From Pseudomonadota bacterium (GTDB lineage: Bacteria; CALINM01), in the NCBI GenBank assembly GCA_026415985.1, contig JAOAGA010000012.1, forward strand, positions 1-25,697: 25,697 nt of DNA. The letters are read 5' to 3'. A program made the position numbers and the translations under genes. Shown piece by piece: positions 1,164-13,065 of this stretch (within the stretch, counting starts at the first letter, position 1; every line of letters starts with the position of its first letter). A model generated the notes under the pieces. The model worked only from the letters and a program-made list of their open reading frames with translations, was not told the DNA's origin and ran no database searches.

Positions 1164-1181
1164 GAAAAATGTTGACATTAA
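1154..1181. repeat. Perfect 10-bp inverted repeat holding two divergent -35 boxes
   Basis: TTAATGTCAA (1154-1163) and TTGACATTAA (1172-1181) are perfect inverted copies separated by 8 bases. Each arm contains a TTGACA -35 hexamer, one pointing to the thioesterase gene and one to the aroF leader. The symmetry may be a dimeric repressor operator or simply two consensus -35 elements placed back to back. Confidence 0.6.
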
Positions 1182-1207
1182 ACTTATTTATTGATTTAAT
1201 TTAAGCT
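1172..1207 (+). promoter_or_regulatory. Sigma-70 promoter for the aroF leader
   Basis: TTGACA (1172-1177), a 17-base spacer and TTTAAT (1195-1200) form a near-consensus promoter. The predicted start of transcription is at 1207-1208, at the ATG of the leader peptide, so the leader peptide would be translated from a leaderless transcript. Confidence 0.65.
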
Positions 1208-1267
1208 ATGTTACAAAAGACAGTTTGCACCTCTATCTTTATTCGATTTAGTCGATTTAGCAAATAG
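1208..1267 (+). CDS. Phe-containing attenuator leader peptide for DAHP synthase
   Basis: A 19-codon frame, MLQKTVCTSIFIRFSRFSK, starts with ATG at 1208 and ends at TAG 1265-1267. It has three Phe codons (1238, 1247, 1256) in its second half, two of them in the repeated unit CGATTTAG; CGA appears to be an uncommon Arg codon in this AGA-rich genome. It lies in the transcribed leader of a gene for aromatic amino acid synthesis and overlaps the 5' arm of a hairpin that competes with an antiterminator. This is the layout of E. coli pheL/pheM-type leader peptides. There is no Shine-Dalgarno sequence, and translation would begin at the very 5' end of the RNA. Identification is from layout, not homology. 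Confidence 0.7.
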   Translation: MLQKTVCTSIFIRFSRFSK

Positions 1268-1338
1268 CTGATTTTTCAGAGAGGGGCACATCTGTCTTAG
1301 TCATTTAATTAGTTTGGTAAAAACAAAAGCCACAGGTG
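1217..1338 (+). promoter_or_regulatory. Transcription attenuator: protector and antiterminator helices
   Basis: Segment 1 inside the leader peptide (AAGACAG 1217-1223, TGC 1226-1228, CCTCT 1230-1234) pairs with segment 2 (AGAGG 1280-1284, GCA 1286-1288, CTGTCTT 1292-1298). Segment 2 (CATCTGTCTT, 1289-1298) can instead pair with segment 3, AAG plus ACAGGTG (1327-1329 and 1332-1338, CC bulged), which is the 5' arm of the terminator. A ribosome stalled at Phe codons would cover segment 1, free segment 2 and prevent termination. With ample Phe-tRNA the 1:2 and terminator hairpins would form. A 4-bp hairpin CTGA/TCAG (1268-1279) follows the leader stop codon. Confidence 0.7.
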
Positions 1339-1361
1339 GAAAAAGCCCCTGTGGCTTTTTT
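1325..1361 (+). terminator. Intrinsic terminator of the aroF attenuator
   Basis: AAAAGCCACAGG (1325-1336) pairs over 12 bp with CCTGTGGCTTTT (1348-1359), followed by a T-rich run. It lies upstream of the aroF Shine-Dalgarno sequence and downstream of the leader peptide, so it terminates before the structural gene. Confidence 0.88.
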
Positions 1362-1381
1362 ATTTTTAAAAGGAGGTTTCT

Positions 1382-2398
1382 ATGATTATTGTAATGAAAA
1401 AGGGTTATAAGAAAAAGGAGTTGGAACACGTAATTAAAACCATTGAAGAGTTAGGTTTTAAGGCCCATCCGATTGTTGGAGTTGAGAGAACAGTTATAGG
1501 AGCAGTTGGTGACGAGAGAGGAAAGTATAAACTTCAAGCCTTACAGGCTTTGTCCTGTGTAGAAAGTGTAGTACCTATTCTAAAACCCTATAAGTTGGCA
1601 AGCAGAGATTTCAAAAAGGAAGATACCGTCGTTAGCGTTGGTAAGGCAAGATTTGGAGGAAAGTTCTTTAGTGTTATAGCGGGTCCCTGTTCCGTTGAAA
1701 CGGAAAAACAAATTGTAGAAACAGCAATAAAGGTAAAGAAGTCAGGTGCCAAGATGCTAAGAGGCGGAGCCTTTAAGCCAAGGACATCACCCTACGCCTT
1801 TCAGGGACTCGAAAGAGATGGTTTGAAGTTACTTGCTAAGGCAAGACAGGAATCGGGACTTCCTTTTGTAACAGAAGTTATAAATCCTGAGGACGTTGAG
1901 CTTGTGGGAGAATATGCCGATTGTCTCCAGATAGGTGCAAGAAATGTTCAAAACTTTCCTCTCTTAAAAAGGGTGGGTAAGTTTGGCAAGCCTGTTTTGT
2001 TAAAAAGGGGTATGTCAACTACTATAGAAGAGTTTTTAATGTCTGCAGAGTACATACTTTCAGAAGGGTGTAAAGATGTTATCCTTTGCGAAAGGGGGAT
2101 ACGAACCTTTGAGACCTCAACAAGAAATACCCTTGATATTTCAGCTATACCTGTTATCAAAGAGAGATCTCATCTGCCTATAATAATTGATCCATCCCAT
2201 TCTGCAGGAGTCAGAAGATATGTTATGCCATTAAGTTTTGCATCCTTAGCCTGTGGGGCAGATGGTTTAATAGTGGAGGTTCATCCTGAGCCGGAGAAAG
2301 CTCTGTGCGATGGTCCTCAGTCTTTAACACTTAGCGACTTTGATTTGCTTATGAAAAGGCTATTGGACCTCTCGAAATTTAATGAAAAAGAGATTTAG
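1382..2398 (+). CDS. aroF: 3-deoxy-7-phosphoheptulonate (DAHP) synthase, type I-beta with N-terminal regulatory domain
   Basis: This enzyme condenses phosphoenolpyruvate with erythrose-4-phosphate, the first step of the shikimate pathway. Residues about 1-70 form the ferredoxin-like domain (MIIVMKKGYKKKELEHVI) seen in Thermotoga-type enzymes, where it mediates feedback inhibition by Tyr or Phe. The barrel follows, with GPCSVETEKQI, MLRGGAFKPRTSPYAFQG, the KRGMSTTIEEF segment and IIDPSHSAG near the C-terminus. Its 338 residues are the normal length for this class. The start is supported by AGGAGG just upstream of the ATG. It is preceded by a Phe attenuator, so control is likely both transcriptional and allosteric. 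The tolA-like gene follows after only 20 bases. Confidence 0.95.
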   Translation: MIIVMKKGYKKKELEHVIKTIEELGFKAHPIVGVERTVIGAVGDERGKYKLQALQALSCVESVVPILKPYKLASRDFKKEDTVVSVGKARFGGKFFSVIAGPCSVETEKQIVETAIKVKKSGAKMLRGGAFKPRTSPYAFQGLERDGLKLLAKARQESGLPFVTEVINPEDVELVGEYADCLQIGARNVQNFPLLKRVGKFGKPVLLKRGMSTTIEEFLMSAEYILSEGCKDVILCERGIRTFETSTRNTLDISAIPVIKERSHLPIIIDPSHSAGVRRYVMPLSFASLACGADGLIVEVHPEPEKALCDGPQSLTLSDFDLLMKRLLDLSKFNEKEI

Positions 2399-2418: not shown

Positions 2419-3192
2419 GTGGCCAGTTCTGTTTATATTTCAAAACAATATGAATATGTAGACAAAATTCTCAGATCGAGAAAGAGAAAAAGGATCAGGA
2501 CATCTTTTTTCCTTTCTTTTTTCTCTCATTTTTTTATTTTTCTTGTTTTATCATTGGGGTTCAAAGCCCCTTTTAAAGAAAAAAGTATTTCTTTAACGGA
2601 AACCTATGTTCAGTTTGCCGATTATAAACCCCTGGAAAAGACAATTAACAAAACAGACGAAGTTGTTGATAATCTTGTTAAAAGGACTAATAAAGAAGCT
2701 GATGATGTTGAGCCTAAAAAGGATAAAGTTGATTCTGAAAACAAAGTTAGTCTTTTCAAAAAGCCTAATAACTTTTCCTGGCGGGAAGAAGTCTCTAAAA
2801 AATATATTAAGGAAGACATAAAGGTTGTTACACCAAAAATTAAAAATTTTAATATTTCTCCTGCCAAACAGCCCCAAACAGGTGAGATGAGTCCCCAGTT
2901 AGGGTGGTATATAAGGGCTTTTTCTATAACGGTAAAAAGTCATTGGCAGATACCAGAGGACATTTACAATAAACTTCAAGGATACTCCGCTGAACTTGAG
3001 GTGTATATTGATGAAAAAGGCTACTTAAAATATAAAATCGTTAATCCCTCAAATAGCAAACTTTTTAATGATTACATAGAAGAAGCGATGAAAAGAACCA
3101 TTTCAAATCTGCCAGCCCAACTTCAACCACCAAAAGAATTAATTGATTATATTGATAAAGGTGGTAAAATTATAATAGAATTTAGATTATGA
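2419..3192 (+). CDS. tolA: TolA/TonB-like energy-transducing envelope protein
   Basis: The protein has a short basic N-terminus, one membrane segment at about residues 27-46 (SFFLSFFSHFFIFLVLSL), a charged periplasmic stretch rich in Lys, Glu and Asp, and a C-terminal TonB/TolA-type domain from about residue 165 (ITVKSHWQIPE onward, LEVYIDEKGYLKYKIVNPS). It immediately precedes tolB, pal and cpoB, which fits TolA, the protein linking the inner-membrane TolQR motor to TolB and Pal. No tolQ or tolR is in the window. The start is a GTG with no strong Shine-Dalgarno sequence; a stop lies in frame four codons upstream and no later start keeps the membrane segment well placed. A TonB-like role is the alternative. 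Confidence 0.75.
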   Translation: MASSVYISKQYEYVDKILRSRKRKRIRTSFFLSFFSHFFIFLVLSLGFKAPFKEKSISLTETYVQFADYKPLEKTINKTDEVVDNLVKRTNKEADDVEPKKDKVDSENKVSLFKKPNNFSWREEVSKKYIKEDIKVVTPKIKNFNISPAKQPQTGEMSPQLGWYIRAFSITVKSHWQIPEDIYNKLQGYSAELEVYIDEKGYLKYKIVNPSNSKLFNDYIEEAMKRTISNLPAQLQPPKELIDYIDKGGKIIIEFRL

Positions 3193-4349
3193 AAAAAATT
3201 ATTGTTTTTGTTACCCTGTTTTTTTGTGCCATCTCAGCATATGCAATAAAAATAACTATTACTGATCCTAATATAAGACCCTTTCGAGTCTTTGCATATC
3301 CCTATGATGAAAAGAATCAATTCTTGAATATTTTTTTTAGTAGCTTTAAGAGTTTACCAAATTTCGAGTTTGTTGAGGAGCCACGCTCAGTTGATTATAC
3401 AATTAAAGCAGAAGATGCAGGGAATGATTTTAAGATTACCCTGAGTAACGAGAAAACAGGTGAGTTTTTTGTTTATCAGATAAAAAAGAATTACCCATCC
3501 CTCTATCTTACTATGGACAAAATATATGAGAAGATTACCGAAACAAAAGGCGTTTTTTCTACAAAACTTGTTTTTTCCATGAACTGGTATGGGAAAAGGG
3601 AGATATTCCTGTCAGACTTGCTGGGTAAGACTTTAAAAAAGCTTACCGATAACAAAAAGGATTCTATATGTCCCAAAATGTCCTTTGACAGAAAGTATAT
3701 AGTTTATACTCTTTATGAAAACGATGGAGCTACATCTTTAAGATTGGTAAATATAAACGATTATACAGAGAAAAATATTTATAGTTCTAAAGAATTAAAT
3801 TTAGCAGGGGGTTTCTCTTCTGATAATAGATATGTATATTTTATTTCCTATGACGGGAAGCAATCGAAGATCTTCAAGCTGGATGTTAATATAGGAAAAG
3901 AGGTTTTGTTATACAAAAGCAGAGCTCGAATAGTAAGCCCGATAACAACTTTCAAGGAAGATGAGCTATTATTTGTATCGGATGAGTATGGTTCTCCTCA
4001 GATTTTTCTTTTTAATGAAAAGGAAAAAAGTATAAAGAGGGTTACTAAGAGCCACTCATATGCAACATCTCCAACTGTTCCGAGGGAAAGCGGATATTTG
4101 GCCTATTTAGCTCAGGTAAACGGAAAAAATCAGATATTTTTATCTTCCTTTGATAATAATGAGTTGGTTCCTCTCTCCTACGGAAACTCAAGCTATGATG
4201 ATATAGTATGGCTCGAAAATCCAAGATTTTTGTTAACCTCACGTAATGATGGCAAGCATTCCATTGTATTTTTAATTGACATTCCTACTCAAAAATATGT
4301 AAAATTATTTGATATTAAAGGAAATATTTCTTACCTTAACGGCTATTAG
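3189..4349 (+). CDS. tolB: Tol-Pal system protein TolB
   Basis: A cleavable signal peptide (MKKIIVFVTLFFCAISAYA, about 19 residues) leads into the N-terminal domain and a C-terminal beta-propeller with TolB-type repeats, for example DSICPKMSFDRKYIVYT, GGFSSDNRYVYFIS and SPTVPRESGYLAYLA. At 386 residues it is slightly shorter than E. coli TolB. TolB is periplasmic, binds Pal and TolA, and works in outer-membrane constriction at division. The ATG overlaps the tolA stop by four bases, so translation is probably coupled. Pal starts 12 bases downstream. Confidence 0.9.
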   Translation: MKKIIVFVTLFFCAISAYAIKITITDPNIRPFRVFAYPYDEKNQFLNIFFSSFKSLPNFEFVEEPRSVDYTIKAEDAGNDFKITLSNEKTGEFFVYQIKKNYPSLYLTMDKIYEKITETKGVFSTKLVFSMNWYGKREIFLSDLLGKTLKKLTDNKKDSICPKMSFDRKYIVYTLYENDGATSLRLVNINDYTEKNIYSSKELNLAGGFSSDNRYVYFISYDGKQSKIFKLDVNIGKEVLLYKSRARIVSPITTFKEDELLFVSDEYGSPQIFLFNEKEKSIKRVTKSHSYATSPTVPRESGYLAYLAQVNGKNQIFLSSFDNNELVPLSYGNSSYDDIVWLENPRFLLTSRNDGKHSIVFLIDIPTQKYVKLFDIKGNISYLNGY

Positions 4350-4361
4350 GAGGCAAAATCA

Positions 4362-4958
4362 ATGAAAAAATTTTTGGTAGCAGTGATCCTTCTCTTTATA
4401 TTTACAGGCTGTGCTAAAGAGAAGATGGCGGTTAAACCCTCACCAGTTTTGACGGATACTGCCAAAGAGGAGAAGTCTGATGTCGCTAAGAAACCTATAT
4501 ATTCAGAGGAAAAGGCAAAGGTCGAAGACTTTTCTGGGCTTAAAGCGTTAACTCCGGAAGAGATAACTCCTGATATGATTGCAAAAGCTCAGATATCTTT
4601 ATCTGATCAAACTGTTGAAAAGGGAGTTTTAGCAAAAATGATTCATTTTGACTTCGACAGTTACGAGATCAAAGCTGATGCAAAAGATATTTTGAAGGAG
4701 ATAGCAAACTATCTTAACGAATACAAATCACTTAATATTATTATAGAAGGACACTGCGACGAGAGAGGGACAAGAGAATATAACTTAGCTTTAGGATTAA
4801 AAAGAGCCGAAGCAACAAAAAGATATCTTACAGATTTGGGAATTGATGAAAAAAGACTTAATATTATTAGCTTTGGCGAAGATAAACCATTAGATCCAGC
4901 AAGCAATGAATCTGCCTGGGCAAAAAACAGAAGGGCTCAATTTAAAAGGGCTCAATGA
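4362..4958 (+). CDS. pal: Peptidoglycan-associated lipoprotein Pal
   Basis: The signal peptide MKKFLVAVILLFIFTGC ends in a lipobox with lipidated Cys17. After a Lys/Glu-rich linker, residues about 90-198 form an OmpA-like peptidoglycan-binding domain: IHFDFDSYEIKADA, IEGHCDERGTREYNLALG and the basic C-terminal [26 protein letters not shown] is the Pal signature. It anchors the outer membrane to peptidoglycan and is the partner of TolB. A Shine-Dalgarno sequence (AGGAGG) lies just before the ATG. Confidence 0.96.
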   Translation: MKKFLVAVILLFIFTGCAKEKMAVKPSPVLTDTAKEEKSDVAKKPIYSEEKAKVEDFSGLKALTPEEITPDMIAKAQISLSDQTVEKGVLAKMIHFDFDSYEIKADAKDILKEIANYLNEYKSLNIIIEGHCDERGTREYNLALGLKRAEATKRYLTDLGIDEKRLNIISFGEDKPLDPASNESAWAKNRRAQFKRAQ

Positions 4959-5830
4959 GATTACTTTTAATATTTTTGCCAATAATTCTGACATCTTGTA
5001 TTGTATCAACCGATGAGTTTTACAAATTACAACGTCAGGTAGCTCAACTACAATCTGAGTTTAGGTCTTCCAAGTCAGAGATTTATACTGAAACTGGTGA
5101 GATAAAAAGTACCACTGAAAGGTTGGATGATTTACATAAAAACCTAAGAAAAAGTTTTGCCGATACAAATACCCGGATTGATGAGTTGGAAGTCAAACTG
5201 AGCAAGACAAGGGGAGACATTGATAAGATTTTAAGTGATATAAACTCTATAAATAAAAACATATCTTCAACCTCTTCAAGCATTAATAATCTCTATCTAA
5301 ACATAAATAAAGAGATTGGCTCCATGAAAACAGAGATTAAAAATATTAGAGAAGGATATATCTCTCTTTTCTCAAATATCTCATCTCTCTCTCAAGAGAT
5401 AAATGCTATATCAAAAATTTCTGCAAAGACAAAAGTTGTAAATCCGGAAGAAAAAGAAAAACTATATAAGGAAGGGCTTGAAAATTATAATAGGAAAAAT
5501 TTCAACGAAGCCATAAACATTTTAGAGAAGTTTACAGTCCTCTATCCTCAGGATGTTCTGACAGCAAATGCACTTTATTGGATAGGTGAGGCCTATTATT
5601 CTCAGAAAAAATTTAATGAGGCACTATCGTATTTCCATAGAGTTGTAATTGACTACTCTAACTCTAAAAAGGTCCCTTCTGCTCTTCTTAAAGAGATTTT
5701 TTGTCTTGAAGAATTGGGGATGGAAAAAGAAGCCAATGGTGCCAAAGAGGAACTCCTTGTCAGATTCCCCTTTTCCGAAGAAGCCAAGTTGCTTAAAGAA
5801 AGAGAGCAGGGCAGAAAAAAGAAGAAATGA
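4955..5830 (+). CDS. cpoB: Tol-Pal system coordinator CpoB/YbgF, lipoprotein form
   Basis: The start overlaps the pal stop (ATGA). The N-terminus [15 protein letters not shown] has a lipobox with Cys15, so this homologue seems membrane anchored, unlike soluble periplasmic E. coli CpoB. Residues about 20-160 are a long coiled coil ([20 protein letters not shown] is representative). The C-terminal TPR region from about residue 165 ([40 protein letters not shown]) is the YbgF hallmark. The protein coordinates peptidoglycan synthesis with outer-membrane constriction in E. coli. It ends with a basic Lys/Arg tail. Confidence 0.88.
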
Positions 5831-12660: not shown

Positions 12661-13022
12661 AAGTTAGCAGGGGAGGAGTTCGCTCCTAATCATTAGGAGA
12701 GGAAAGTCCGGGCTCCATGAGGCATGACGTTTCCTAACAGGAAGTTCTGGCAACAGAAGGAAAGTGCCACAGAAAACATACCGCCCTGTAAAGGGTAAGG
12801 GTGAAATGGTGAGGTAAGAGCTCACCGCATAGCTGGTGACAGCTATGGCAGGGTAAACCCCGTCAGGAGCAATGCCAAATAGGCTCCTAAATCTTTTTGA
12901 GATTGGTGTGCCTCCACCCCTTAATAAGGTAGGAGCGGGTAGGCAGCAAGACATATCTGGCAACGGATATGCAAAGATGAATGAACTCCCATGACAGAAC
13001 CCGGCTTATACCCCTGCTAATT
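12661..13022 (+). ncRNA. rnpB: RNase P RNA (bacterial type A)
   Basis: This is the catalytic RNA that matures tRNA 5' ends. The universal core is present: GAGGAAAGTCCGGGCTCC near the 5' end and ACAGAACCCGGCTTATA near the 3' end, plus AGGGTGAAATGGTGAGGTAAGAGC-like P7-P11 core elements around 12797-12822 and the GGTAAACCCC segment. Helix P1 closes the molecule: TTAGCAGGGG (12664-12673) pairs with CCCCTGCTAA (13011-13020). The open frames running through it are non-coding. Confidence 0.97.
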
Positions 13023-13065
13023 TTATAATTGCTTCTTTATAACACTTAATGAAGGTGATGTCTAA

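Follow-up and report, generated by a model that had tools for sequence, protein, structure and literature searches.

The window, by which we mean the whole analysed stretch of 25,697 nucleotides from a Pseudomonadota genome of the CALINM01 lineage (contig JAOAGA010000012.1), carries near its start the gene aroF, preceded by a short reading frame and an intrinsic terminator. The aroF product matches PF00793 at 4.7e-80 and PF18152 at 2.6e-24, scores above the cut-offs for NF006421 and TIGR01361, and has 1rzm among its closest solved structures. It is a type I-beta DAHP synthase, composed of a DAHP_synth_1 domain with a B. subtilis-type core and a ferredoxin-like N-terminal domain. Three type I-beta paralogs are encoded in this genome (G000 C33, C128, and C119; L001-L003), and the 450 nt upstream of the other two contain no comparable leader. 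Nor was a comparable leader found within about 330 nt upstream of the matched starts of trpE, pheA, ilvB, and leuA in any of the lineage's three genomes, where most of these genes sit inside or close behind other genes. Directly 3' of aroF lies a Tol-Pal-like cluster (TonB C-terminal, TolB-like, Pal, and YbgF; 2419-5830), which is possibly within reach of aroF readthrough. An Rfam scan of the window retrieved a bacterial RNase P class A RNA gene (12664-13024; 301.8 bits) and two tRNAs only, with no match to a T-box or to the Phe_leader family RF01859. In ten relatives from several groups, no attenuator family matched at the aroF leaders, and RF01859 gave one sub-threshold match (30.6 versus 55 bits), located in L107 away from the aroF leader.

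A preliminary description of this DNA had interpreted the region upstream of aroF as a Phe-codon attenuator with a leaderless leader peptide. The parts of this region are listed in Table 1. The leader frame of 19 codons with three Phe codons was borne out in the sequence. Three Phe residues in 18 codons have a probability of about 0.06 if considered alone; judged by sequence comparison, the weight of these codons is their conservation in relatives, not their enrichment alone. The promoter is absent from the list of a generic promoter scan because that scan requires an A at the second position of the -10 box.

Table 1. Features of the aroF leader region in the window
Feature	Position	Strand	Description and basis
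Promoter	1172-1200	+	-35 TTGACA 1172-1177, 17-nt spacer, -10 TTTAAT 1195-1200; sequence
Expected transcription start	1207-1208	+	Predicted from promoter geometry
Leader peptide frame MLQKTVCTSIFIRFSRFSK	1208-1267	+	19 codons and stop, predicted leaderless; counterparts in L034, L036, L035, L151, L153
Phe codons of the leader	1238, 1247, 1256	+	Sequence
In-frame TAG and continuation	1265-1300	+	TAG 1265-1267, then LIFQRGAHLS to TAG 1298-1300; 30 codons in total
Segment 1 (AAGACAGTTTGCACCTCT)	1217-1234	+	5' arm of anti-antiterminator hairpin; MFE fold
Segment 2 (AGAGGGGCACATCTGTCTT)	1280-1298	+	Pairs with segment 1 (MFE fold); pairing with segment 3 proposed
Intrinsic terminator AAAAGCCACAGG...CCTGTGGCTTTTTT	1325-1361	+	5' arm is segment 3; MFE fold, kept before aroF of relatives
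Shine-Dalgarno sequence of aroF	1371-1376	+	AGGAGG; sequence
aroF	1382-2398	+	Type I-beta DAHP synthase with N-terminal ferredoxin-like domain; domain matches

The RNA from 1208 to 1361 folds with a minimum free energy (MFE) of -48.5 kcal/mol (z -5.0), which none of 200 shuffled sequences reached. Its MFE structure consists of the strong terminator and of the hairpin that had been proposed between the 5' half of the leader and a downstream segment (AAGACAG/CTGTCTT, TGC/GCA, and CCTCT/AGAGG), so that both elements of the preliminary description were recovered. The duplex energy of segments 1 and 2 was matched by just 5 of 1,000 shuffles. The proposed antiterminator fared differently. Pairing of CATCTGTCTT (1289-1298) with 1327-1338 comprises 10 pairs with a 2-nt bulge at -9.9 kcal/mol; this 2:3 duplex is no better than chance (412 of 1,000 shuffles equal it), and forcing it costs 3.3 kcal/mol relative to the best, local alternative. 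We also modelled ribosome stalling by placing a ribosome on each codon of transcripts that end just before the terminator 3' arm and computing the probability that the terminator 5' arm is sequestered. In the window, the three Phe codons gave 0.12, 0.48, and 0.31, and the probability was 0.30 both at the stop codon and without a ribosome, values to be read with the reservation that nearest-neighbour equilibrium models are poor at co-transcriptional switching. Because the antiterminator does not exceed chance and a TAG interrupts the leader frame, the claim that the window displays the full logic of attenuation is not supported.

The picture is sharper in relatives. The window's group, as compared here, comprises its own genome and two family relatives, G001 and G002. 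The leader layout recurs with differing sequence as MHQHGTCFYMRFIRFSLFFILCGVPLMVFA in G001 (L036) and MHQQGTYKSFRFIRFSNLSSAQGVPLMVFA in G002 (L034), and also in G060 (L035, titled Nitrospirae) and in L151 and L153, both from the phylum of G060. Leaders of G001, G002, and G060 contain 4-6 Phe codons each, and those of L035, L151, and L153 combine Phe with Tyr, or Phe with Tyr and Trp codons. The terminator in front of aroF is conserved in relatives. A heptanucleotide, CGATTTA (Arg-Phe codons), is found in all six leaders amid variable flanking codons; in the window it occupies 1244-1250 and 1253-1259.

The 2:3 duplexes of G001 and G002 reach -26 kcal/mol each, a value matched by none of 1,000 shuffles in either case; for L151 and L153, no 2:3 duplex was significant against shuffles. 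In the stall model of G001 and G002, the terminator 5' arm was sequestered with a probability of 0.84-0.86 for every ribosome position on a Phe or Tyr codon upstream of segment 2, versus 0.03 at the stop codon, and this switch persisted at 55-65 C. The corresponding values for G060 were 0.65 and 0.36. Of the proposed attenuator before DAHP synthase, the Phe-codon leader, the terminator, and the cognate gene are conserved, and switching in the model is clear in the sisters G001 and G002 and partial in G060. Likewise, the suggested comparison of upstream regions in related genomes recovered a conserved Phe-codon frame and, in the sisters, a strong 2:3 helix, but no significant 2:3 helix in L151 and L153. 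In G001 and G002, the leader frame extends through segment 2, so a ribosome at the end of the frame would mask segment 2 and free the terminator. The working mode suggested by this comparison, with segment 2 masked directly by the ribosome, differs somewhat from the one originally proposed. Since the antiterminator of both sisters forms in the equilibrium model even without a ribosome, the 1:2 step needs a kinetic argument in these genomes.

Beyond the TAG at codon 20 of the window leader, ten more codons can be read before the next stop, which brings the total to 30. Leaders of the relatives have 30-31 codons; the window frame of 19 codons is therefore probably a truncated form. Between the Phe motif and segment 2, the window has the same nucleotide spacing as G001 and G002. 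The TAG may be a sequencing error. Recoding of TAG was considered and ruled out, as 4 of the 23 presumed genes of the window, aroF included, end in this codon. The weak antiterminator together with the shortened leader suggests that the window copy is probably weakly inducible or partly decayed, and the likeliest reading is that a switch which is sound across the lineage is present here as a truncated or weakening copy.

We consider it probable that the window leader controls aroF by ribosome-mediated transcription attenuation, with Phe codons being read. From its parts we infer that transcription would start at the leader AUG or no more than one base away from it and that the ribosome would load on a leaderless RNA. 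With sufficient Phe-tRNA, the peptide would be finished, segment 3 would be left free, the terminator would form, and aroF would be off. When Phe-tRNA is scarce, the ribosome would stall at the Phe codons and block segment 1, allowing segment 2 to pair with the terminator 5' arm, with readthrough into aroF as the predicted outcome. A less probable, though serious, alternative is that the window holds a decayed attenuator, in which the antiterminator has eroded, the TAG has removed the frame over segment 2, and constant partial readthrough expresses aroF. The 2:3 duplex at chance level, the in-frame TAG in a frame otherwise open to the length found in relatives, the flat stall response, and the presence of two further DAHP synthase paralogs in the genome are all consistent with decay, whereas the strong 1:2 hairpin, improbable by chance, and the retention of both Phe codons and terminator argue against it, as does the weakness of equilibrium models on co-transcriptional switching.

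A wider survey placed the putative attenuator in a larger context. Applying a strict criterion (a leader frame with at least 5 aromatic residues making up at least 20%, followed by a terminator), we detected an aromatic leader in 78 of 108 related aroF upstream regions, compared with 4 of 300 random windows; when upstream regions were shuffled with the terminator kept, 30 of 296 still qualified. Phe, Tyr, and Trp occur together in 67 of these 78 leaders, which total 270 Phe, 273 Tyr, and 94 Trp codons. With three aromatic residues in 19, the window leader falls outside the strict set. In an alignment of 37 leaders, mainly Syntrophales and other deltaproteobacterial ones, we scored the 1:2 and 2:3 helices as predefined structures. 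Paired cells amounted to 93.9% for the 2:3 helix, versus 30-39% after a shift of one to three columns, and to 83.6% for the 1:2 helix, versus 20-44% after shifting. RNAalifold, applied to the Syntrophales-type alignment, saw the terminator alone. The start codon of the leader itself (ATGGRCAG) falls within segment 1, which is similar to the terminator arm. In Thermodesulfovibrio-type loci (L097:2764-2860; L155, L157, L161, L162, L165, and L168), the aroF leader frame starts a few bases after an apparent tRNA-Pro gene, and the leader may, given this proximity, belong to the tRNA transcript.

A literature search, which was not exhaustive, found no description of this aroF attenuator family. We lean towards the view that the window belongs to a large attenuator family located before I-beta DAHP synthases in Nitrospirota, Deferribacterota, Syntrophales, other deltaproteobacteria, and the window's own lineage. 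In this family, one ribosome would read Phe, Tyr, and Trp codons jointly at the first enzyme of the pathway, leaders would exist in leaderless form and with a UTR of 20-25 nt, and the leader of the window's species would be in the course of being shortened by its TAG.

The leaderless start that had been assigned to the window leader agrees with the position of the sigma-70-like TTGACA-17-TTTAAT promoter seven nt before ATG 1208, a geometry kept in the six closest leaders (window, L034, L035, L036, L151, and L153), where the ATG follows the -10 box by 6-7 nt; the start itself is a predicted one. It is rather improbable that the leader is not leaderless, with transcription starting further upstream or from another promoter and the ATG located on an ordinary 5' UTR. 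Such an arrangement would be in line with the imperfect -10 box, and most homologous Syntrophales leaders have a predicted UTR of about 20-25 nt before the ATG. On the other side, no Shine-Dalgarno sequence precedes the leader ATG, and the spacing in the six close leaders is maintained despite their sequence divergence. Similar geometry, with 5-8 nt from the -10 box to the ATG, occurs in several distant loci, namely, L105 and L108 (titled Deltaproteobacteria), L104 (Deferribacteraceae), L107 (Denitrovibrio), and L164 and L166 (from the phylum of G060); L099 was left out of the leaderless set, its TATAAT lying further upstream. In addition, promoter-like sites running directly into an ATG are commoner in the window's genome than in the reversed control (27 versus 11, as counted by pattern matches); of 20 such sites examined (G000 loci L180-L199), about half start long ORFs. 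Considering this excess and the long ORFs, leaderless mRNAs, as judged from predicted starts, seem ordinary in this genome and may be common in its lineage.

The Arg-Phe codons common to the six close leaders, amid varying codons, might suggest an arrest peptide similar to TnaC that responds to a signal other than tRNA charging. We regard this as very unlikely, since the homologues differ in how many aromatic codons they contain, in what order, and of which kind (F, Y, and W), without conservation of the peptide, as expected from codon reading, and the Arg-Phe motif is missing from the Syntrophales leaders. There is equally little reason to expect that the terminated leader RNA acts chiefly in trans, as a small RNA or as a peptide mRNA comparable to rnTrpL/peTrpL of Sinorhizobium, with attenuation being secondary: the predicted leaderless mRNA, short at about 150 nt and ending at a strong terminator, resembles rnTrpL, but attenuation alone explains the conserved position before aroF and the cognate codons.

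The enterobacterial Phe leader (RF01859) controls pheA or pheST, and its peptide is encoded on an ordinary UTR. The proposed window attenuator shares with it the logic of ribosome-mediated attenuation at Phe codons and differs in lacking an RF01859 match. Neither Phe attenuation before aroF nor a leaderless attenuator peptide, both of which the preliminary description had suggested to be new, is without precedent. For C. glutamicum aroR-aroF (Neshat et al. 2014, as cited in PMC11802643), Phe limitation is reported to raise expression. As in the window, a Phe-codon leader peptide precedes a DAHP synthase gene there, but the system is actinobacterial and has a Phe-Tyr-Phe motif; the comparison covers leader peptide, gene, and regulation. 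Another counterpart is uORFC-13-1 of Acholeplasma aroF, a predicted Phe-reading uORF with an intrinsic terminator before aroF; unlike the window leader, it has an RBS, and it is known from Acholeplasma and environmental sequences as a prediction only (PMC8632094).

In C. glutamicum ilvBNC, the RNA starts one nt from the AUG, and the Val codons and the start codon matter (Morbach et al. 2000; PMC11857589). This attenuator peptide is thus made from an RNA starting by its AUG, as predicted for the window, yet it serves branched-chain amino acids in a different lineage and with different structures. The trpL RNA of S. meliloti starts at the ATG and likewise combines a leaderless leader peptide, as predicted for the window, with a terminated leader RNA; it differs in its Trp codons and in the additional trans activity of its peptide and sRNA (PMC7298713). 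Further leaderless attenuator peptides include several in S. lividans and that of C. diphtheriae ilvB. In light of these published examples, the kind of mechanism is already known, and the lineages are new.

Our analysis would broaden the range of ribosome-mediated aroF attenuation to include deep-branching lineages, most of them uncultured. The window may represent a case of such a switch losing parts. Leaders reading Phe, Tyr, and Trp jointly would let the first enzyme answer to any of three end products via one peptide. With one switch available in homologous forms that are leaderless or carry a UTR, the effect of leaderless ribosome loading on attenuation would become directly testable.
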